A stretch of 64,000 nt of DNA, from contig JAQWRY010000086.1 in the NCBI GenBank assembly GCA_029243485.1, positions 248,001 to 312,000 of the forward strand. Direction: 5' to 3'. The translations under genes and the position numbers were made by a program. Shown here piece by piece: positions 13,759 through 58,751 of this stretch (positions within the stretch are counted from its first letter, which is position 1; each line of letters starts with the position of its first letter). The stretch comes from Candidatus Binatia bacterium (GTDB lineage: Bacteria; Desulfobacterota; Binatia; UBA12015). The notes under the pieces were generated by a model. The model searched no databases and was not told where the DNA came from. It saw nothing but the letters and a program-made list of their open reading frames with translations.

Positions 13759-16700
13759 TCAGTCCCCGCTGTAGCGGAGCTGCTGGAAGGTCGGGGTGAC
13801 GGGTCCCTTGGGCTGGAACGTCCGGACCGATGACACCGCGACCTCCCCGAGATCGACACTGACCCGGAGGTCGTTCGAATCGACCAGCGGCAGCTCCTGG
13901 TGCGAGGCCTTGATCCGCAGTTTCCAGCTCGCCGTGCCGCCCTTCCGTGAGAGATTGAGCGAAACCTCACCGCCGGTGGGCAGCAGGTTCGGTGCCTTCT
14001 TCACGCGGAAGCCCGACCCCTTGGCGATCATCGTGCCCGCAGGCATGTAGAACGACGCCAGGATCTTGGTCGGCGAGGAAACCGTCACGGTGATCGCGCC
14101 GGTTCCGTCGAAGGTCGGCGGCACGAGGACACGACCCTGGATCTTAATCCGGCCGCTCCCACCCTTCTTACCCGTCGGCTTCTTCTGCCAACGGCCCGAC
14201 TTGATCTCCTCCCACTCGACGGCGCCCGCCGCTGGAAGATGCAGACTCGCCGCGCGTGCCGTGCCGGTGCCGGTCGCTATCGCCGAGAAGCTCGCGATGC
14301 TGCCCGAGGGAGCCCCGCTCATCACCTGCACCTGAATGGCGCCGCTCTGCCCCGGCGTGAGGGTACCGATGTCCCAGGAAAGGACGCCTTCGACAGTCGG
14401 AGGAGGCACCGTTCCGAGGATTTCGAAGAAGGCGCCGGCGTCGAACGTGACGACCACGTTGTCCACCGAAGCCACGCCGTCGTTCGCGTAGTCGATCGTC
14501 AGATCGATGAGACCTGCCGGCTTGGCCTCCGTCTGCGCCGAAGAAAGCGCGAGCGACAGGCCCGGCGCCGTCTCTACCGACGACAGCAGAGCCACACTGG
14601 CGTTCTCGCCACCCGCCGCACTGAGCGCGGCTTCCGTGCCGAGGATGGCGCCGTTCTGAACCCCACCGCCAACGGCGACGGTCACCTGAATGCTGCCACC
14701 GCCCCCCGGAGGAATATCCCCGAGGAACCAGAAATCATTCGAAGCCGACGCAGGAGGCGGAACCGACCCGACGAAGCTCAGATCCGCATCGTAGACGACA
14801 GTCATCATGGCATCGATGAGCGTCGTGTCGCCGGGGTTTCCGTAGGAGATCGTGTACATCACCTGTCCGCCGGGAGCGACGGGATCGATCGAGGCCGCCG
14901 CGGCGAGCGCGATGCCTTCGACGGTCTGGACGGTGTTCGTCGTGCTCTCGGTGATCAACTGAGCCGAGTCATCTTGCAACGTCGCGTTCGAGAGAAGAAG
15001 CGTGCCGTCGGGCAGGCCGCCATCCACGAGTCCACGAAGCGTGACCGTACCCGACGCTCCAACCGCGAGCGTTCCGAGCGTCCACGTATCGGTCGTGGCG
15101 AAGTCCGGCGCCGGCGTCGCCGACACGAAGATTACGCCCGCCGGCAGAGCCGCCGACAGTACGGTCCCCGTCGCATCGAGCGTGCCCGAGTTTCCGTAGT
15201 TCAGGGCGTAGGTGAGGATGTTGCCCGGCTGAACCGGCTCGGGCGCACCGACGATCCCGAGTTGCAGCGCCGGGATGAGGTCGATGACGGTACTCACCGT
15301 CGCCGTCGAGCTGTTGCTCAGCGCGTCGCTCATGATGCCGGTGAGCGTCGCGATCGAGCCATTGGGTGCGATGGCATCGGCGACGATGGCGATCGTGGCC
15401 GATGCGCCCGGCGCGAGGCTGCCGATCGTAAAGACGTTGTCGGTACCGACGTCCGGGGTCGGAGCGGACGAGAAGAACGCGATCTCCGCCGAGTAGGTCG
15501 CACTCACGACCACTCCGGTCGCCGTGTCACTGCCCGTATTCGAGTAGGTCAGCAGGTACGTAATCTGCCCGCCCGTGATGACCGGGTCCGGCGAATCGGA
15601 CGCAACCAGGCTCAGCGAAGGCGAGCTCTGTGCGGTCGTGTCGACGGACGCCGACGCCGTGTTTCCGAGATCATCGGTGACGGTCGCCGAGGAGGTCAGG
15701 AGCGTCCCATTCGGAACGACCGACGGGAGCTGGACTTGAATGCGAACCCGGGAGCTATCGCCACCACGGATCTGCGGAATCGTCCACGTGTCCCCCAGGG
15801 CAGTATCAGGGGTCACGTCCGCACCCACGTAGGTGAGCAGCGGGTCGTAGCCCAGGTTCAGGACGACATTGAATGCCGTGTCGGTACCCGGGTTGGTGAA
15901 TACGGCGTCGTAGAGCACGATGCCGTCGGCCGGCGCCGGATCCGGGACGTCCGTGATCGCCAGGGTGAGCTGCGGCGCACTCTGTACCGTGTTCGTGGCG
16001 GTCGCTACGGTGTCGTTTGAGAAGACGTCGGTCATCGTGAACAGCGTCGATATCGTGCTGCCGTTCGCGAGCGGGCTCCCAACGTCGACCGTCACGGTGA
16101 TCGTTCCGCCCGCGCCCGGCGGCAACGAGCCGATGCTCCACTGATTGTCCGTACCCGTCTCCGGGGGCGGCGTGGCATCGAAAAAGCTGAGCGCATTCGG
16201 ATAGTCCGCGATCAGCAGGGTGCTGACCGAGTCTGCCGTGCCCAGGTTGGAGTACGTGATCGTGTAGGTTGCCTGCCCGGCCGCAACGAACGGATTTGGC
16301 GCGCTCGCAACCACGCCATAGACGGGATTGCTCTCGATGTTGACCTGCAACGACGCGCTGACCTGCTGTCCGATCGAAGCTTCTTCAAGTGTCGCGGTGT
16401 TCGTGGTGATGGTGCCCGTGGGAAGAGGACTCGCGACGCTAAACGTCGCGGTGACCGAGCCGGAACCGCCGGCCGGAATCGTGCCGATGTTCCACACGAC
16501 GTCGCTGCCGGAGAGCGCACCGCCGCCGGTGGCAGAGACGAACGTGAGATGGGTCGGAACAGGGTCGGTCATAACGACCGTGGTCGCCGGGCCGGTGCCG
16601 ATGTTTGCGTACACCAACGAGAAGGTGACGGTGCCGCCCGCGGCCGCGGGCAGCGGGCTCGCGGTCTTGGAGAGCGTGACGTTCGGCTCGGGGCTGATGG

Positions 16701-17718
16701 CCACCTCCGCCGGGGAACCGAAGACGGAGACCGTGACCCCCGGGCTCCCGTCGAGACCGAAGATCGAAACCGAGCCGTCCGTCGTGTTCGCAACGGCGGC
16801 CTTGGTCGAATCCGGGAAGACGGCGATGCCGGCCGGGTTGCTGCCGACCGGAACCGAGCCGGTGACGAACTGAATTCCGGTCTCGAAGATGGTGACGCTT
16901 CCGTCCTGATCGTTGCTGACCACGCCGGTGAGCCCGTCAGGAGAGACGGCAACACCGAGCGGCCCGGCACCGACCAGAACCGTTCCTACGATCTGAAGGT
17001 CGAGTTCGCGGATCACGGTGACCGTGTTGGCGGAGTCGTTGCTGACGTAAATCTCGCCACCACCGGCCGCGATGCCTTCGGGCGTCGCGCCGACCGGGAT
17101 CTCGTCGATGACGAGGTTCGTCGAGGTGTCGATCACCGACACGGAGTCGTCGGCCCGGTTGGTCACGTACGCGAAGCCACCACTCGGGGAGAGCGCGACA
17201 TCGAAGGGCCCGTTGCCGACCTCGATGTTGGCGATGACGGTGTCGGACGCGCTGTCGATCGCCGCCACCATGCAGACCGGGACGGGCTCGGGGGTCGGCT
17301 CGGGGGTCGGGCCCGGCGTCGGGGAGGGGCCCGGGGTCGGCGTCGGGGAGGGGCCGGGGATGACGCACTCGGTCGACTGAACGACATAGGCCGTGGCGCC
17401 GTCCGGGGTCAAAGCGACAGCCGTCGGATTGCCCGGGACCGGGATCGTCGCCGTCACGGTGTTGGTGGCGATGTCGATCCGACTGACCGTGTTGTCGCCA
17501 CGGTTCGCGACGTAGGCGAAAGTCCCGTTGCTATCGATCGCGATTCCGGTCGGCGCCTGGCCCACCGGAATCGAGGCGACCTGGAGCCCATCTGTGGATT
17601 GCAAGACGTGGACCGTATTGGTCCCCTGGTTGGTGACGTAGATCAGGGGCGCCGCGAGGGCGAGGCTCGGGAGAGCGAGCGCGCAGATCGAGAGCGCGAG
17701 AATACTGGGCTTACGCAA
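13759..17718 (-). CDS. Large secreted protein: YVTN-type beta-propeller plus DUF11-like repeats
   Basis: A 1319-aa exported protein with a classical signal peptide (MRKPSILALSICALALPSLA). Residues about 25-350 are YVTN/YncE-type propeller blades (PLIYVTNQGTNTVHVLQS, FAYVANRGDNTVSRID, GFAYVTNRADDSVSVID). A Pro/Thr-rich linker at about 123-148 interrupts the propeller. From about 355 to 1150 there are roughly seven DUF11/CARDB-like repeats of about 110 residues, each with an LTYVGA/LSFVGS-type strand and a G-T-V-T/Q-V segment. The last about 145 residues (KIQGRVLVPPTFDGTGAITV onward) form a beta module also seen in 56744-57283. An adhesive or structural surface role is inferred. No sortase or PEP-CTERM tail is seen. 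Confidence 0.9.
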   Translation of the reverse strand: MRKPSILALSICALALPSLALAAPLIYVTNQGTNTVHVLQSTDGLQVASIPVGQAPTGIAIDSNGTFAYVANRGDNTVSRIDIATNTVTATIPVPGNPTAVALTPDGATAYVVQSTECVIPGPSPTPTPGPSPTPGPTPEPTPEPVPVCMVAAIDSASDTVIANIEVGNGPFDVALSPSGGFAYVTNRADDSVSVIDTSTNLVIDEIPVGATPEGIAAGGGEIYVSNDSANTVTVIRELDLQIVGTVLVGAGPLGVAVSPDGLTGVVSNDQDGSVTIFETGIQFVTGSVPVGSNPAGIAVFPDSTKAAVANTTDGSVSIFGLDGSPGVTVSVFGSPAEVAISPEPNVTLSKTASPLPAAAGGTVTFSLVYANIGTGPATTVVMTDPVPTHLTFVSATGGGALSGSDVVWNIGTIPAGGSGSVTATFSVASPLPTGTITTNTATLEEASIGQQVSASLQVNIESNPVYGVVASAPNPFVAAGQATYTITYSNLGTADSVSTLLIADYPNALSFFDATPPPETGTDNQWSIGSLPPGAGGTITVTVDVGSPLANGSTISTLFTMTDVFSNDTVATATNTVQSAPQLTLAITDVPDPAPADGIVLYDAVFTNPGTDTAFNVVLNLGYDPLLTYVGADVTPDTALGDTWTIPQIRGGDSSRVRIQVQLPSVVPNGTLLTSSATVTDDLGNTASASVDTTAQSSPSLSLVASDSPDPVITGGQITYLLTYSNTGSDTATGVVVSATYSAEIAFFSSAPTPDVGTDNVFTIGSLAPGASATIAIVADAIAPNGSIATLTGIMSDALSNSSTATVSTVIDLIPALQLGIVGAPEPVQPGNILTYALNYGNSGTLDATGTVLSAALPAGVIFVSATPAPDFATTDTWTLGTLAVGASGTVTLRGLVDGGLPDGTLLLSNATLQDDSAQLITESTTNTVQTVEGIALAAAASIDPVAPGGQVMYTISYGNPGDTTLIDAMMTVVYDADLSFVGSVPPPASASNDFWFLGDIPPGGGGSIQVTVAVGGGVQNGAILGTEAALSAAGGENASVALLSSVETAPGLSLALSSAQTEAKPAGLIDLTIDYANDGVASVDNVVVTFDAGAFFEILGTVPPPTVEGVLSWDIGTLTPGQSGAIQVQVMSGAPSGSIASFSAIATGTGTARAASLHLPAAGAVEWEEIKSGRWQKKPTGKKGGSGRIKIQGRVLVPPTFDGTGAITVTVSSPTKILASFYMPAGTMIAKGSGFRVKKAPNLLPTGGEVSLNLSRKGGTASWKLRIKASHQELPLVDSNDLRVSVDLGEVAVSSVRTFQPKGPVTPTFQQLRYSGD
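17266..17360 (-). repeat. Low-complexity Pro/Thr/Glu linker-coding repeat
   Basis: Tandem GGGGTCGG-type units encode PTPTPGPSPTPGPTPEPTPE inside the propeller of the gene at 13759-17718. The stretch is a likely hypervariable flexible loop. Confidence 0.7.
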
Positions 17719-19008: not shown

Positions 19009-21090
19009 CTAGCGAGCGACGGGTTCGTCGTCGGGCGCGCCGCCGAAAAAGGGGCTCGTCCAGGCGGCGCCGCCGTCGGTCTGAACGACCCGGAGATAGA
19101 GATAGTCCCCCTCGCCGAGGGGCGGTAGATCCGCCACACCCGAGAGTTCGCGCTTGCCCTCGCCCGGGATCGAGACCCGCGGTTCACCCGAGCGGATCAA
19201 GTCGATGCGCTCGATCGGTGCGGTCCCGGCCACGTTCCACGCGAGACGCTGGGGGGTTTCCCCCGCGGCGATGGGAACGTCCGAGCCCATCGGCCGCCCA
19301 TCCAGGGAGGTCTGCACCAGTATACGGGGACCGTTGGTCGCGTAGGATCGCCGGCTCCGCAGAGCGTCGAGGAGTGCACCCCGCGTGCGCGGTTCTTCCG
19401 AAGCGCTCCAGACGGCGGCCACTCCGGATTTGCCGGCGGCGACCTGGGAAAGCCCCGGGTGGCCGTCGTGTCCGTCGCTGCCCCCGGTGAAGCCGAGTCG
19501 GTATCCGAGATCGAGCGCATCACGGACGTAGTTGCCCGGCTTGGGGTTGTAAATCGGCATCGGTGAATCGGGAGACTCGCTACTCCCGTGGACCGACGCG
19601 ATCTCCGTCACCGGCTCGAGTTCGGGATCGGGAGGGATCGACCAATCAATCGGCACCGGGCCGCCCGCCGAGTGGTGAGCGATCGTCAGAACCGGTTCGC
19701 CGCGGAGCGCGCCCCACAGCTTCGGCGGCGTATCGAGGTTCGGTGCGAGCGAGCTCAGCACCCGCAAGTCCTCTAGGTCGTCACCGAAGTGCACCACGTG
19801 CCGGTGCCCCTCGACCCAGTTGGTCCATTCGAAACCGAGGAGCGCGACGAAGCGTCCCGGCGCATGGAACTGCCCCACGTCCGCAACCGTTTGGTCCCAA
19901 AGCTGCGGATTCGCATCCAGCGCCTGGAGGCCCCAATGGTCGTGGTCGGTGATCGCGAGGAAGTCGAGTCCGGCGGCGTCGCGGCCGTACTCGAAGTACT
20001 CCGCCGGGGTCGCGGAGCCGTCGGAGAGCTGCGTGTGGCCCTGGAGGTCTCCCCACAAGAGCGTCGCTCTCTGGGCATCGCCCACCAGCATCGGATTGCT
20101 CTCCGCTTCGAGGGACCGACGGGCCTCGTCCACGTCGGTCTTCGCCCGGACTCGGTAGAGACCCGCCTTGCGGGCCTGCACGTCGACGGTGCGTCGACTC
20201 GCATCCTCCTTCGTGAAGGTGAGGCTCCCCGGCAGGTCAAGACCGGTCGCGCCGTCTGCCAGCTCCAACCGGACGTCCCCCTCGAATGGCGCACCCATGT
20301 TCCCCGCTCGATCGAGGACCGCGACCGTGAGCGGGACCGTCTCCCCGGGCCGTGCCGTACCCGGGAGGGCCAGGTAGAGAAGCGCCGGCCGGGCCGCTCG
20401 AACATCGACGCCCGGCGAGCGCTCGATCAGCTTGCGTACCCCGTCGCCGTCACCGTCGACGGCGATCCACAGCTTCGAGTCGCTCTCGGCGAACCGATCG
20501 ACCTTGGCCGCGCTCGGCCCGGCGCCGAAGTCGATCCGCACGCGTTCACCCGGTGCCAGGGCGCGTCCCTGGATCTCGATACCCAGAAGCTGGGGACCGA
20601 GAGTCTGAGGGACCAACGTAATTCCCTTCGCGTCCGTGTGGACGGTGGTGTAGCCGGGGCCCTTCTCTTCGACGACCTGTGGCGTGTCCCAACCCCAGAA
20701 CGGCGACACCTGCAGGAAGATCATCCCACCGTCTGCAACTCCGAGCGGCCCGGCCTCGTACAGGATGGGGAACCGCGCGCGGGTACTAGCGGTGACTTCC
20801 GGACGAGAACCCAACGCCTCGTGGCCGTCGATCCAGGCGCGACCCCCGCCATCGGCGGGACTACGGACGGTTTCGATGTCCGCGAGCATCTCGGCCTTGA
20901 TCTCCGGGTGCGCCCAGGAGCGCTCAGCCGTGGGGGCCGGCTCGGCCACCGCGGCGGGCGATGTCGCCGGCTCTTGCGCCGGGGAAGCCGGGTTCGTTTC
21001 GTCGCGCGCGCAACCCGATTCGAGCACCGCGAAGACGACCATCAAACCCACCAAAATACTTTGGCCAGCAGGTCGTACAGCGAGCCGCAT
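19009..21090 (-). CDS. Exported PHP-domain protein of the DUF3604 type
   Basis: A 693-aa protein with a hydrophobic N-terminus (SILVGLMVVFAVLESGC) ending in a lipobox-like Cys; Glu at -3 is atypical, so lipidation is uncertain. Residues about 130-330 are beta-rich Ig-like domains. The catalytic part starts with LLWGDLQGHTQLSDGSATPA (PHP-type His-x-His metal site), continues with FLAITDHDHWG and TIAHHSAGG, and includes GFTGGSDGHDGHPG. DUF3604 proteins are PHP-fold putative metallo-phosphoesterases or hydrolases, often exported. Substrate unknown. Confidence 0.87.
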   Translation of the reverse strand: MRLAVRPAGQSILVGLMVVFAVLESGCARDETNPASPAQEPATSPAAVAEPAPTAERSWAHPEIKAEMLADIETVRSPADGGGRAWIDGHEALGSRPEVTASTRARFPILYEAGPLGVADGGMIFLQVSPFWGWDTPQVVEEKGPGYTTVHTDAKGITLVPQTLGPQLLGIEIQGRALAPGERVRIDFGAGPSAAKVDRFAESDSKLWIAVDGDGDGVRKLIERSPGVDVRAARPALLYLALPGTARPGETVPLTVAVLDRAGNMGAPFEGDVRLELADGATGLDLPGSLTFTKEDASRRTVDVQARKAGLYRVRAKTDVDEARRSLEAESNPMLVGDAQRATLLWGDLQGHTQLSDGSATPAEYFEYGRDAAGLDFLAITDHDHWGLQALDANPQLWDQTVADVGQFHAPGRFVALLGFEWTNWVEGHRHVVHFGDDLEDLRVLSSLAPNLDTPPKLWGALRGEPVLTIAHHSAGGPVPIDWSIPPDPELEPVTEIASVHGSSESPDSPMPIYNPKPGNYVRDALDLGYRLGFTGGSDGHDGHPGLSQVAAGKSGVAAVWSASEEPRTRGALLDALRSRRSYATNGPRILVQTSLDGRPMGSDVPIAAGETPQRLAWNVAGTAPIERIDLIRSGEPRVSIPGEGKRELSGVADLPPLGEGDYLYLRVVQTDGGAAWTSPFFGGAPDDEPVAR

Positions 21091-53518: not shown

Positions 53519-56500
53519 TCACCCCCCTCGAGTCGCCTCCGAGTAGATCTTGGGCAGCTCGAGCGGAAGAGCGCCGATCTCGTCGATGACGAGGTAGCGC
53601 TTCTCTTCACACATCTCGCGCAGGTAATCGTTGCCGGCGCGATCGACTGTGATGCAGAAGGTCGAGATGCCGCTCTTCTGCGCCTCGCGCAGAGCCATCG
53701 CGGTGTCCTTCAGGCCGTAGACGTTCGAGCGACGATCGTCCCCGTAGTCGAAGTCCTGGGGGAACCCGTCCGAGAGCAGGATGAGATGCTTCGACCGCGC
53801 GACGATCGGTCGGAAGTACGTGAGCGCCTGGCGTAGGGCCGCTCCCATCCGCGTCGAACGCTGCGGCTCGATGCCACCGATCCGACTGCGCACCCCCATG
53901 GTCAGTGACTCGTCGAAAGACTTCACCGAGAAGAGCTCGACCTGCCGCCTGCCGTGGCCGGAGAACCCGTAGATCGCGTACAGATCGCCGATCTCCTCGA
54001 GCGCCTGGGACATGATGACGAGCGCTTCCTTCTGGATGTCGATGATTCGGCGCCGCTTCGGCTGGGGCGGGTGGATGGCGAAATCGAAATCGTCCTCGTC
54101 GGTGGGCTCGGCGGGAGGCGGCGGCTCGGTCTCCTCATCGGTCGACGCGGACATGTCGAGCAGGAACAGCGTCGCGACGTCGCGCTCCTCTCGCTTGCGG
54201 GCCGTGTAGAGCTTCGACGACGTGTCGTGTCGCGCCCGGAGGTCCGCGCGGGCTGTCACGACGGCGTTCAGGTCGAAGTCCTCCCCGTCGAGAAGGCCCC
54301 GCAGGACGCGGTAGCCCTCCGGCTTCACCCGCTGGAACTGACGGCGGACCTCGGGCAGCAGCTCCCGATGCTCGGATAGCGCGGCCGTGAAGAACGAACC
54401 GCTGTCCCCATCGACCTCCACGTCGTGCACGTGGCACCAGCCCACGCGGTAATCCTCGATCCGGTGATCCCACTCATCGTGAAGGTGCACGCCCTTGGCT
54501 TCCCGGGTTGGGCGTTGGACCGCGAACATCCGATCTGCGGATTCTCCGCTCCGATCAGCCTTGTCTCCATCCATGCCCGAACCGGTGAGACCTGCGACGA
54601 ACAGGCCGGTGGGATCGATCGCCCCCTCGGACCGCTGCACGGTCAGGTCCGGGTTCTGCTCGAGGTAGGCCTTGAGGAGCTCGGGATCGAGCGGGACACT
54701 CGGCGAGGTTTCGTCCGACCGCTGGCCCTTGCCGTCGCGCGGTTCCTGCACGATCTCGGTCGGATCACCCGCGTCGCCGGGGGCGGCGGCCGTGTCGTCG
54801 TCCTCGAGGTCCAAGAGGTAGGCAAGGGCCGGATCCTCGGCCAGGAACTCCTCGAGCCCATAGACCTTCACGAGCTCTCCCTCGGAGAGCATCCGGCTGA
54901 ACAGGGTGGTGCAACGGGCCGTGTCGTAGACCGTCGCTTCGCCCTCGTGGGCCGCGCGGGCGAACGTGCAGACTTCCGCACCCTTCACGTCGCCGAGGTT
55001 CACGCGCTCGACCGGTCCGCCCAAGGCCAAGTAGAGCATCGCCGCCGAGGGACCGTCCTCGGGTTGAATCTCGTCGGTCGGGAACACTCGCTTCCGGAGC
55101 TCCACGACATCGGCCGCCAGACCCGGGTAGCGCTCCGCCAGACGGGGCATGATCCGCGCCGCTTCGAGGTGCATGAAGAGCCCCGCGGCGGCCTCGGGCG
55201 ATTCGAACCGACGGAAGAACTCGTCGAGCCCGCCCTCGTCCTCGGTCTCCACCCATTGCCGGATGTCGAAGTCGAAGGTCCCCTCGTATTTCCAGAGGGT
55301 GGCGAGCGTCGCCTGCAACTTCATGAGGGTGAAGTTCTCTTCCCAGATCGGGAACACGTTCACGCGCTCGCTCACGGGGACCGTCGCTCCGTCGGTCGCG
55401 ATGGGAGCGAAGAGCCCGCGCGCCTCGACCGGCACCACCGGCAGCCGACCGCCCTCCAGCAACTGGAGGTAGCCTCGGAGCGTCGTGTCGATGTCCTCCA
55501 GTACGACCGCGGCATCGTGTCGGGTAAGGAACGCTCGGGCGCCGCGGGTCTCGAGGCCGAAGAAGGCCTCGGCGGCGACAGGCTGGATCTCGGCGAGAGC
55601 CAGACCCTCACGCACGAACGCTTCCAGATCGTGTCCGTACCCGACCGCGTCGCCGACACGCAGCACCGCCCGCAAGAAGCGCGGCGCCGCCGCCCGCGCC
55701 GGACCCGCGATCTCGTTGGCCAGATCCAGAACCATCCACCGAGCGGGTTGATCCAGACGACGCAGGACCGGCCCCACGACCTCGAGCGCGTCCAGGAGTT
55801 GCGTCGAGTCGCCGGCGAGCGAGCGAGCGAGGGTGACGACCGCGGAGCGGCTGTGGCGCGGCGTTCCCTCGAGGGCGGCAGGCGCCGCCTCGAACACCTT
55901 CCGTCCGCCGATCCGGTCCGCGGCCGAAGCGCGCGTTGCGAGATCCACCGCATCCGCCAGTTCCTCGTCGGAGAGGCCGGGCGCCGCGGGGAGCATGTCG
56001 AAGTGCCCCCCCGTTCGTCGGGATCCGAAGACCGCGGCCTCGCAGTACCGGGCCCAGGACTCGATCACGTCGCCGCCCCGGGTTGAGATCGCGGCGCCGG
56101 CAGCGGTAGCGAACCGCGGCACGAGGGGATCGGTCCGATGGCGCTCCGCGAGCCCGGCCACCGCAGTCGCGCATCCCGGGAGGCGAGCGGCGGCAGGCCG
56201 GTCCGCGAGCCCTTCGAGGGAAGCGACCCCGAACGCCTGTGCGGCGCGGACCGAGTGCGCCCCGATTTCCTCGATCCCGGTGCACCAGTCCCGGATGCTG
56301 GTCGGATCCAGCCCCTCGATCGCAGCGACAGGCAGAGCGACCAGGGCGAGCCCAGCATCGCGACCGGCGCCCTCGAGCTCGACGACACGCCCCAGTGACT
56401 CCGCGTAGGCCAGGGTCCGGTCGGCGCCCATCGATGCGCCGAAGTCCGCCGCGAGATCCCGGATCCGTCCCGCAAAGCCGGGGCTCCGTGCTTCGAGCGC

Positions 56501-56554
56501 TTCCGCGAGACGGAGCAGCGCCGAAGCCGGCGCACTGTCGTCCGCGTGGCTCAT
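53519..56554 (-). CDS. NorD/CbbO-like VWA protein (third module)
   Basis: Start chosen at the ATG at 56554 (MSHADDSAPASALLRLAEAL), 15 codons into the longest frame; 1011 aa. The N-terminal about 600 residues are helical. The C-terminal region has HDEWDHRIEDYRVGWCHVHD, YRVLRGLLDGEDFDLNAVV and the VWA domain TLFLLDMSASTDEETEPPPP, with DxSxS MIDAS, then IYGFSGHGRRQVELFSVKSF and HLILLSDGFPQDFDYGDDRR. This is the architecture of NorD and CbbO, which act with NorQ/CbbQ ATPases to activate a metalloenzyme. No nor or cbb structural gene is nearby. Confidence 0.9.
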   Translation of the reverse strand: MSHADDSAPASALLRLAEALEARSPGFAGRIRDLAADFGASMGADRTLAYAESLGRVVELEGAGRDAGLALVALPVAAIEGLDPTSIRDWCTGIEEIGAHSVRAAQAFGVASLEGLADRPAAARLPGCATAVAGLAERHRTDPLVPRFATAAGAAISTRGGDVIESWARYCEAAVFGSRRTGGHFDMLPAAPGLSDEELADAVDLATRASAADRIGGRKVFEAAPAALEGTPRHSRSAVVTLARSLAGDSTQLLDALEVVGPVLRRLDQPARWMVLDLANEIAGPARAAAPRFLRAVLRVGDAVGYGHDLEAFVREGLALAEIQPVAAEAFFGLETRGARAFLTRHDAAVVLEDIDTTLRGYLQLLEGGRLPVVPVEARGLFAPIATDGATVPVSERVNVFPIWEENFTLMKLQATLATLWKYEGTFDFDIRQWVETEDEGGLDEFFRRFESPEAAAGLFMHLEAARIMPRLAERYPGLAADVVELRKRVFPTDEIQPEDGPSAAMLYLALGGPVERVNLGDVKGAEVCTFARAAHEGEATVYDTARCTTLFSRMLSEGELVKVYGLEEFLAEDPALAYLLDLEDDDTAAAPGDAGDPTEIVQEPRDGKGQRSDETSPSVPLDPELLKAYLEQNPDLTVQRSEGAIDPTGLFVAGLTGSGMDGDKADRSGESADRMFAVQRPTREAKGVHLHDEWDHRIEDYRVGWCHVHDVEVDGDSGSFFTAALSEHRELLPEVRRQFQRVKPEGYRVLRGLLDGEDFDLNAVVTARADLRARHDTSSKLYTARKREERDVATLFLLDMSASTDEETEPPPPAEPTDEDDFDFAIHPPQPKRRRIIDIQKEALVIMSQALEEIGDLYAIYGFSGHGRRQVELFSVKSFDESLTMGVRSRIGGIEPQRSTRMGAALRQALTYFRPIVARSKHLILLSDGFPQDFDYGDDRRSNVYGLKDTAMALREAQKSGISTFCITVDRAGNDYLREMCEEKRYLVIDEIGALPLELPKIYSEATRGG

Positions 56555-56743
56555 CCCACCTCGATTTCGCATTCCCCCGCGAAAACCGCCAGGAAGCACA
56601 CCGAACGTCGAGGGCCGAGCTACCGGGTCCGCCCCAGGGAATGCGGCCGAAGAGCCTAGCCGGTTCCCGCTAAAGTTCCCGCCCTCACCACCCGATGTTC
56701 TCAGCAGGTCGGAGTGGGTCCGGCCGAATGTGGGAGGATAGCC

Positions 56744-57283
56744 ATGCTTATCAGATCCAGTGTTCTCGCTCTCGTTGCGGCCCTGTCCCTGTCCGTCTCT
56801 GTTGATTCCGTTCAGGCACAGGAAATTCCGCAGCCGTTATTCGGAAACTGCTGTTCGTGCAGTGCTGCGATCAAGTTTCGTCCGGCTCTCGATCTGCTCA
56901 AGATCGGCGCCCGCGTCCTCCCTACGCCGACTGCGGTCATCGATCCGGTGGCCACGGGCATGACAATCGATCTGAGCAACGCCGACGGCGGTCTTCTCTC
57001 GACTACGATTCCGCCGGGCGCGTTCGTCGCAAAGAACGGCGGCCAGAAGTTCATCTACAAGAACAAGGCGGCTCGGCTGACGGGCGGCGTTGTGAGCGCC
57101 GTTGTCCAGGAACGGAACGACCAGCACGGTGGCTGGTTGATTAGCGTGAAGGCCTACGGAGACCTCTCCGGCGCCACCCTGGCGGAGATGTCGACCGACG
57201 TCGCCATCGGCACGTCATCGTTCTTCGACACCAGCGATTGGGATCAGCGATCCAAGGGTTGGCGTAAGAAGTTCCAGCAGTAG
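56744..57283 (+). CDS. Secreted small beta-domain protein
   Basis: A 179-aa protein starting MLIRSSVLALVAALSLSVSV at the ATG at 56744, after a GGGAGGATA ribosome site, with signal cleavage near VQAQEI. A double-Cys segment GNCCSCSAAI follows. The rest (PPGAFVAKNGGQKFIYKNKA, VQERNDQHGGWLISVKAYGD) matches the C-terminal module of the large protein at 13759-17718 (PAGTMIAKGSGFRVKKAPNL, GTASWKLRIKASHQELPLVD). It interrupts the NorQ-NorD arrangement on the opposite strand. Function unknown; exported. Confidence 0.72.
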   Translation: MLIRSSVLALVAALSLSVSVDSVQAQEIPQPLFGNCCSCSAAIKFRPALDLLKIGARVLPTPTAVIDPVATGMTIDLSNADGGLLSTTIPPGAFVAKNGGQKFIYKNKAARLTGGVVSAVVQERNDQHGGWLISVKAYGDLSGATLAEMSTDVAIGTSSFFDTSDWDQRSKGWRKKFQQ

Positions 57284-57328: not shown

Positions 57329-58159
57329 TCACTCTGCGAACAGCGCGGAAACCAGCTCCGACACCTGCCGGAGCATCTCGGGGTCGTCAGTGAGCGAGTT
57401 CGTCACCGCGACGGTGCAGGCCCGTCTGGGCGCGAGCCCCTTGGCGATCAGCTGGCCGGCGTACACGAGGAGCCGCGTACTCACGCCCTCGCCCAGGCCC
57501 GAGCCTCGCAAGTGCCGCACCTTCTCGCCCAGGGTCGCGAGACTGAGCGCGGTATCGGCATCGATACCCGTCTCGTGGCGGACGATCTCTGCCTCGCGGT
57601 CGCGCGGCGGGTAGTCGAAGTCGAGGCTGACGAAGCGCTGCCGCGTCGAGTGCTTCAAGTCCTTCAGGACGCTCTGGTAGCCCGGGTTGTAGGAGATCAC
57701 GAGCAGGAAGCCGGGATCCGCCTCGACGATCTCACCGCGCTTGTCGATCGGCAGGATCCGCCGATGATCGGTGAGCGGATGGATGAGGACGATCGTGTCC
57801 TTCCGCGCCTCGACGACTTCGTCGAGGTAGCAGATCGACCCGGCGCGCACGGATTGCGTCAGCGGACCGTCGATCCATACCGTCTCGTCGCCTTGGATGA
57901 GGTACCGGCCGACGAGATCAGACCCGGTCAGATCTTCGTGGCAGGCGACGGTGATGAGAGACGGCGCGCCGCCCGGCCGCGGCTCGTCGCCCATGAGACG
58001 ATGCGCCATGTACTCGACGAAGCGCGTCTTCCCGCAACCCGTCGGACCCTTGAGGAGAACCGGCAACCGGCACTCGTAGGCAGCGGTGAAGATCTCGATC
58101 TCGTCGTGGATCGAAAGATAGTAGGGCGCGCTAGAGGGCGCTTCGGCGGTAGTCGTCAT
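57329..58159 (-). CDS. NorQ/CbbQ-type MoxR AAA+ ATPase (third module)
   Basis: Start set at the ATG at 58159 ([20 protein letters not shown]); 276 aa. Walker A is [20 protein letters not shown], followed by [20 protein letters not shown] (pore/loop region typical of CbbQ/NorQ). Walker B is [40 protein letters not shown] is a signature of this subgroup. It pairs with the NorD/CbbO-like protein at 53519-56554 although a divergent secreted-protein gene lies between. 25 bp after algH. Confidence 0.92.
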
Positions 58160-58184
58160 GTGCGCTTTCGCTCGGACCGAGAGT

Positions 58185-58751
58185 TCAGTGGATGCCCGGC
58201 CCGGGCGAGATGGCACTCGGCTCGACGCCGAGGGAGCGAATCGCGCTCTCCCACACCTTCTCGGATGGCGTGTGGAAGATCAGATCCATGCTGACCGGTA
58301 CGGTGAGCCAGGCCGACGCGGCCAGCTCGGTATCGAGTTGCCCCGGTCCCCATCCCGCGTAGCCCAAGAGCAGCCGTGCGCGATCGGGTTCGCAGTGGCG
58401 GGGGTCGCCGCCGAGCACGCTCGTGAGATGCGACTGGGAACTCGACATGAAGATTCCGTCGCACACGTTCAACGTCTCGCCTTCCGCCGGCTCGTCGCGA
58501 CACAGGAGCCAGCCGCGCTCCTGATTGACGGGGCCCCCCTCCCAGACCGTGAGGGGGAGGTCGCCGACATCTTCGGACTCGAGCTCGAGGAGTTCGCTGG
58601 CGGGGATCTCGAGGGGACGGTTCACGATGAAGCCCAGGGCTCCGTCGTCGCCGTGGCGGCACAGGAGAACGACCGAACGATGAAAGTTCGGATCTTCGAG
58701 CTGTGGCATGGCCAGCAGCAAGCCTGGGGTGAGTCCGTCTGCGGTCGGCAT
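58185..58751 (-). CDS. AlgH/YqgE family protein (UPF0301)
   Basis: A 188-aa protein starting [20 protein letters not shown] at the ATG at 58751; longer starts would overlap the divergent MFS gene. Signatures are [49 protein letters not shown] and [20 protein letters not shown]. The AlgH family is widespread; a role in transcription-linked regulation has been suggested but the biochemistry is open. Upstream of and probably cotranscribed with the NorQ-like ATPase. Confidence 0.93.

Follow-up and report, generated by a model that had tools for sequence, protein, structure and literature searches.

Two proteins encoded in a stretch of 64,000 nucleotides from a Candidatus Binatia bacterium (assembly GCA_029243485.1, contig JAQWRY010000086.1, positions 248,001 to 312,000; hereafter the window) share a C-terminal module of about 140 residues that represents a domain family without counterpart in the libraries searched. 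One is an exported protein of 1319 amino acids (aa; 13759–17718, minus strand), and the other is a protein of 179 aa (56744–57283, plus strand) that consists of a signal peptide and the module and of almost nothing besides. The module stands at the very end of most of its carriers, occurs once in each of them, and is joined to many different kinds of cargo. From this position and this variety of cargo we infer a sorting role. We favour the reading that the module serves as a targeting or anchoring domain at the C-terminus, similar in its working to the C-terminal domain (CTD) of the type IX secretion system (T9SS) yet distinct from it, and we regard the case for this reading as evenly balanced.

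The initial annotation of the window had pointed to a likeness between the last about 145 residues of the 1319-aa protein and most of the 179-aa protein, and held-out profiles and shuffles confirmed that the two segments are homologous. BLASTP between them gave an E value of 4e-4 (one comparison), with 31 of 89 residues identical. The local alignment score was 69, compared with a maximum of 51 among 2000 shuffles of the 1319-aa tail, and of the 248 further frames in the window with a length of 120 aa or more, none reached this score against the 179-aa module (best, 58). A hidden Markov model (HMM) of 86 copies, from which the 1319-aa tail and all copies linked to it by BLASTP at E < 1e-5 were excluded, recovered this tail at E 1.5e-11, and the held-out HMM for the 179-aa protein, with 31 copies left, recovered that protein at E 1.6e-20; each of the two profiles may still include the other window segment. 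When all rows similar to either segment were purged (25 copies left), the 179-aa protein was again recovered (3.7e-19) and the 1319-aa tail was missed, which therefore is a divergent member. Over four profile iterations, reversed frames never passed E 1e-4. A propeller/DUF11 protein from another genome (L103, genome G005) carries a module that is linked by BLASTP to the window's 1319-aa tail, as is the module of a second frame at the same locus. The residue pattern that had first drawn attention to the two segments matches conserved columns of the family, i.e., P-x-G (0.55, 0.88), Y-x-[DN], GG (0.58, 0.89), and [WY]-R followed by [AG].

The position of the module was quantified in a set of 127 open frames, which were obtained by six-frame searches of fetched loci at E <= 1e-4. 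Exclusion of frames with fewer than 85 model positions or an open C-terminal end left 120, and 95 carriers remained at 70% redundancy. The module ended within 10 residues of the stop codon in 80 of these 95 and within 25 residues in 90; the fetched regions had been picked by score and not by position, and the seven seeds were C-terminal or almost so. In a second set, from families other than that of the window, the end lay within 10 residues of the stop in 22 of 23 cases. A pair of G and [WFY] started within the last 16 residues of 55 of the 95 carriers, compared with a mean of 12.6 and a maximum of 23 in 200 shuffles. None of the carriers (0/95) had, among its last 45 residues, a 19-residue stretch whose mean hydropathy exceeded 1.6. 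The open frames of the carriers have lengths of 135–3041 residues (median 506), and each of the 127 contains a single copy of the module at E <= 1e-4; by contrast, DUF11 is present sevenfold in the window's 1319-aa protein.

Export signals are enriched among the carriers. Rule-based signal peptides were present in 56 of the 68 carriers with a closed N-terminus and in 81 of 317 background frames (Fisher p 2e-18), the rules being crude and the background holding spurious frames. The cargo is diverse. The 86 carriers with at least 80 residues of cargo fell into 28 similarity clusters, the largest of which (42 members) is probably chained by repeats. Thirty of the 74 cargo parts longer than 150 aa were scanned with a Pfam cut-off of 1e-4, and 19 of the 30 had a match, some of these under the curated cut-off. 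The families comprise DUF11, DUF7507, SdrD_B, GEVED, DUF6923, pAdhesive_15, beta-helix/NosD, DUF3604, DUF7107, FG-GAP/UnbV, CAP, and disintegrin-like and DUF4215-type repeats. The protein from genome G005 mentioned above (a frame of 735 residues) has propeller and DUF11 matches like those of the window's protein and the module at its end. In the window's genome, 3 of 4 DUF11 proteins end in the module, one of them as a weak match only (E 0.0077). A DUF11 protein of 1545 aa in this genome (L191, contig C70) has cysteine-rich repeats in the place of the module.

More distant relatives extend the range of cargo. Eleven weak profile matches were found in the window's genome, eight of them within 40 residues of the stop codon, and six of these eight form a second, cysteine-rich branch (L142, L143, L147, L149, L150, L152). 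Alignment of this branch with the broad family profile described below (A8) by hhalign gave a probability of 96.5% and an E value of 7e-10. Its hosts contain thermolysin, M43, GH8, purple-acid-phosphatase N-terminal, PQQ-propeller, and beta-helix domains.

The family is large. The 179-aa protein alone, used as query, found four further places in the same genome at E < 1e-5. A profile of seven rows, which were copies from the window's genome only (A1), recovered its own seven rows and one further place at E < 1e-6 in this genome (8 places in total), plus two weaker ones. The broad profile of 67 rows (A8) found 20 places at E < 0.01. Nine of them had E < 1e-12, so that the further copies asked for as a check on the shared module exist, although the profile holds most of the nine as rows. 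A1 detected copies in 28 of 39 genomes, i.e., the window's own and its relatives, including all 14 of the window's family. With A8, copies were found at E <= 1e-6 in 56 of 148 genomes of the class Binatia, which together contain at least 569 copies, a total that includes the rows of the profile and rests on no more than 27 scored candidates per genome. Among 198 genomes sampled from the phylum and searched with A1 at E <= 1e-5, a copy was present in 4, each of them a member of the class; genomes from elsewhere in the phylum had none among the candidates (at most 20 per genome) scored with this weaker profile, which misses class genomes found by A8, and weak copies may exist outside the class. 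The suggestion that the module is specific to this lineage thus stands within the sampling, in which whole genomes were drawn from this phylum only.

No significant match to the module was found in Pfam, NCBIfam, or the PDB sequences. The best library matches among 67 members were to FlgD of NCBIfam (E 0.0013) and DUF3710 of Pfam (0.0064), followed by Ig-like Big_1 and TcfC at 0.03, each with a single member. In the open-licence literature on secretion or C-terminal sorting domains of Binatota/Binatia, no such domain is named in the titles and beginnings of abstracts found. An origin from mobile elements was rejected, as tblastn searches of plasmids and phages with the 179-aa protein and of plasmids with a member of the remote branch were empty and a scan of viral contigs confirmed zero relatives. 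A match on an alpha/beta hydrolase that may represent an N-terminal type (L012, E 0.016) and other weak matches (L003–L005) were dropped, being missing from the list of the better profile at E 0.01. Some copies (L054, L085, L110, L146) are split over two frames or truncated, which may reflect assembly frameshifts or decaying genes; the alignment row from L054 ends before the frame break.

The module is predicted to fold into an Ig-like beta-sandwich. AlphaFold2 (AF2) modelled the module of the 179-aa protein with eleven strands (pLDDT 82.9, pTM 0.76; six sequences only) and the 1319-aa tail with ten strands in a poor model (pLDDT 58, pTM 0.57). The main strand order is equal in the two, in agreement with the common origin to be checked by structure prediction, the model of the tail being of low confidence. 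Foldseek found no match in the PDB at E <= 0.001. In VIA, the two models reached best Z scores of 5.8 and 6.2, chiefly with generic Ig-like domains, and a T9SS CTD structure was not prominent among the matches listed. Many copies of the module begin with a C-x-H-x-C or C-x-x-C-like motif (e.g., at window positions 56849–56863), which may form a disulfide, bind a metal, serve for attachment, or have some other role. Cysteines at columns 1 and 5 are both present in 60 of 95 copies, one only is present in 16, and none in 19, and those at columns 67 and 87 are paired in 6/6; p-values for such pairing are inflated by the relatedness of the copies. The co-varying cysteine pairs suggest disulfides, which would fit an oxidising compartment. 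Conserved polar and turn columns are D18, D33, N45, D72, D104, and G136–W137.

These features can be joined in a mechanism. Carriers would be synthesised with a Sec signal peptide at the N-terminus and with the Ig-like beta-sandwich as last domain, would cross the inner membrane via Sec, and would then fold in the periplasm. The folded C-terminal domain would be recognised by a common component of the outer membrane or the cell surface, and this recognition might serve translocation, surface retention, or both. Unrelated cargo such as propeller/DUF11 stalks, SdrD_B-type adhesins, and beta-helices would be brought to one place, and the metallopeptidases and a glycosidase of the remote branch to that same place.

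Several results weigh against this reading. Five of the 95 copies lie 66 to 676 residues ahead of the stop codon, two of them close to the N-terminus (L109, L049), and 3 of the 11 weak matches in the window's genome lie 85, 236, and 399 residues ahead of it. Lipoprotein signals, detected by pattern, occurred in 3 of 56 exported carriers compared with 8 of 81 exported background frames (p 0.52), and their exclusion as a test for a choice of anchor was given up as not significant. Only 1 of the 17 DUF3604 proteins of the window's genome with long matches bears the module, as judged by the length of the C-terminal extension (L153–L169), and therefore the same enzymes are also made without it. Within the window's family, the likeness of modules on unrelated cargo was 0.240 in the same genome and 0.233 in different genomes, and 160 of 1000 label shuffles were as high, so that there is no sign of co-evolution with one receptor. 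Concerted evolution within genomes was not seen in these values either. Likeness is higher between modules on related cargo (0.37, 0.31), and modules therefore in part descend with their cargo. The DUF3604 matches of the window's genome number 37 in total, 17 of which span much of the profile, and the DUF3604 protein of the window itself (19009–21090, minus strand) has a lipobox-like start and no module.

The search for a partner also speaks against the favoured reading. No partner, protease site, or anchor was found for the module. When 2114 frames around 112 loci were clustered, no neighbour family stood beside more than 8 of them among the sixteen largest clusters listed. The largest clusters, named by eye, were a short-chain-dehydrogenase-like frame, an apparently antisense frame, and a beta-helix protein, followed by the cbbQ/AlgH-like surroundings of relatives of the 179-aa protein and by a PAS-sensor-like frame in four loci. 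The type II secretion component GspD is near-universal in the class (145 of 148 genomes), and its presence therefore cannot explain the distribution of the module. At least two full-length GspD proteins were present in 22 of 56 module-bearing genomes and in 4 of 92 others (p 1e-7). A midpoint-rooted tree of 40 GspD sequences from 27 genomes (L213–L252) has two deep clades, and many module-bearing genomes hold GspD of both. The clade of 24 rows was represented in 16 of 17 module-bearing genomes and in 6 of 10 others (p 0.047). Type II secretion as partner is a lead and not evidence, since only top matches were retrieved, fragmented genomes lose copies, and the pattern tracks families. Taken together, of the anchoring or targeting function proposed at the outset, the end position, single copy, signal peptides, and mixed cargo stand in its favour, whereas no machine, cleavage site, or anchor has come to light and 5 of 95 copies lie more than 25 residues from the stop codon.

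Both open reading frames are present where the initial annotation had placed them. The 1319-aa protein has a signal peptide, a YVTN/lactonase-type beta-propeller at about residues 25–340, about seven DUF11 repeats, and the C-terminal module, as read from its translation and profile matches (Pfam DUF11, 8.9e-54 over 7 stretches, and Lactonase, 2.4e-10; NCBIfam beta_rpt_yvtn, 5.4e-40). Its module (13771–14211, minus strand; HMM envelope, E 2.7e-19) ends 3 residues before the stop codon and is missing the CxHxC entry motif, and its tail has zero matches to Pfam or NCBIfam models. The 179-aa protein likewise has zero matches in Pfam and NCBIfam. Its signal peptide (56744–56818, plus strand) was read from the sequence, with an expected cleavage at SVQA/QEIPQP, and its module (56849–57277, plus strand; HMM E 7.6e-45) starts with CCSC and ends 1 residue before the stop codon.

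The gene for the 179-aa protein lies in the window between the genes for a CbbQ/NirQ/NorQ-type AAA ATPase (57329–58216, minus strand; Pfam AAA_5 4.7e-31, CbbQ_C 2.3e-28) and a 1026-aa VWA protein (53519–56599, minus strand; Pfam VWA 1.9e-5), on the strand opposite to both, and these two neighbours are given as context only. The same order occurs in four other genomes (G001, G003, G008, G012), with identities from 71% to 38%. Relatives of the 179-aa protein adjoin cbbQ in two more genomes (G006, G011), and in a further one (G007) a longer module-bearing frame lies beside a partial VWA match. A signal peptide with nothing but the module behind it has been retained at this locus across genera, which suggests that the protein has its own function. 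In T9SS, some components of the system bear a CTD themselves, according to PMC11285876, and PorA is described in PMC7712824 as a CTD protein that feeds a signalling path. The parallel with the 179-aa protein is only suggestive.

The strongest rival is that the module is an accessory binding domain, i.e., an Ig-like sandwich that binds a polysaccharide, the matrix, or a surface ligand, is joined to the ends of secreted enzymes and adhesins in the manner of carbohydrate-binding or pre-peptidase C-terminal (PPC) domains, and has no sorting role, and we consider this a serious possibility, albeit a rather unlikely one. Ig-like sandwiches are common binding folds, the PDB comparisons gave generic Ig matches, and 1 of 67 members matched a lectin model marginally (BP39L, E 0.094); however, no PPC or carbohydrate-binding module (CBM) profile was matched by the 67 members at E 0.1. 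Binding modules are often repeated or internal, and the strict end position together with never more than one copy per protein would be unusual for them, although the copies close to the N-terminus (L109, L049) would be readily explained. The enzymes and adhesins among the cargo often bear such domains, and both the 16 of 17 long-match DUF3604 proteins without module and the partial descent of modules with their cargo fit a binding domain, whereas the syntenic gene that encodes only a signal peptide and the module speaks against one.

It is improbable that the module is merely a structural cap, a stable, disulfide-braced end domain without specific partner that guards long stalks from proteolysis or aids folding. 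The co-varying cysteine pairs and the many long hosts would agree with a cap, but in the remote branch enzymes are capped too, in the 179-aa protein the module stands alone, and in our judgement the conserved polar and turn columns exceed the apparent needs of a mere cap. A chance likeness of the two segments through low-complexity Lys/Gly strands is hardly credible and was rejected, for despite the modest pairwise E value (4e-4) and the loss of the 1319-aa tail from the doubly purged profile, the held-out HMM found this tail at E 1.5e-11, 0 of 2000 shuffles scored as high, no reversed frame reached E 1e-4 over four iterations, and the main strand order is equal in the AF2 models of both segments.

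A bolder form of the favoured reading, a C-terminal targeting or anchoring domain, can be put forward tentatively, and we hold it to be doubtful. Binatia may have a surface-sorting or outer-membrane export route of their own, independent of T9SS, that would read a folded C-terminal beta-sandwich of about 140 residues and would, in some genomes, serve over 20 cargo proteins that include enzymes as well as adhesins; a component or regulator of this route might be the 179-aa protein, whose gene adjoins cbbQ.

The module may be an unrecognised tag that directs exported proteins. If this holds true, a large family of C-terminal domains that the searched libraries lack, with at least 569 copies in 56 genomes, would gain a name, and a sequence handle on the secretomes of these bacteria would be available. 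The family is known from a little-studied class, and the named carrier records found are all metagenome assemblies. The phyletic pattern of the module offers a route to the partner gene. Even as an accessory domain, the module annotates hundreds of exported proteins.

Four groups of known domains invite comparison. The NCBIfam "choice-of-anchor" families are tied to variable C-terminal anchors, and choice_anch_X (NF041940) was matched by 1 of the 67 members at an E value of 0.0093, which is not significant. Carbohydrate-binding and PPC-type domains are beta-sandwiches fused to secreted enzymes, often at the C-terminus, and resemble the module in these respects, but the module is unmatched by such profiles, has a single copy per open reading frame, and also occurs on adhesin-like proteins and alone. 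The MYXO-CTERM/myxosortase system of Myxococcota, as described in PMC11980579, is similar in that each genome of these diderms, which lie outside Bacteroidota, has dozens of surface proteins with a C-terminal tag. In contrast, MYXO-CTERM combines a short Cys motif with a transmembrane helix and a tail rich in arginine, whereas the module is a globular domain, and a C-terminal hydrophobic helix above the threshold was present in 0 of 95 carriers.

The closest parallel is the T9SS CTD. None of the 67 members matched the T9SS profiles of Pfam and NCBIfam at E 0.1 (Por_Secre_tail and the T9SS sorting models), and in searches without positive control SprA_N was found in 0 of 39 genomes and PorV_fam in 0 of 148. 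T9SS genes are absent outside the FCB phyla according to PMC11285876, and the CTD has 70–100 aa and seven strands, in contrast to about 140 aa and eleven predicted strands for the module. Because the profiles were unmatched, the domain is longer, and the searches for the machinery, run without positive controls, were empty, the module was not assigned as a T9SS CTD. Nevertheless, the two share, according to PMC11285876 and PMC4804311 for the CTD, a Sec signal peptide combined with a C-terminal Ig-like beta-sandwich, which is a prediction in the case of the module, low identity among copies, and many unrelated cargoes. If the favoured reading is true, the module would be a second instance, this one outside the FCB group, of a folded sandwich at the C-terminus that serves as a sorting signal.

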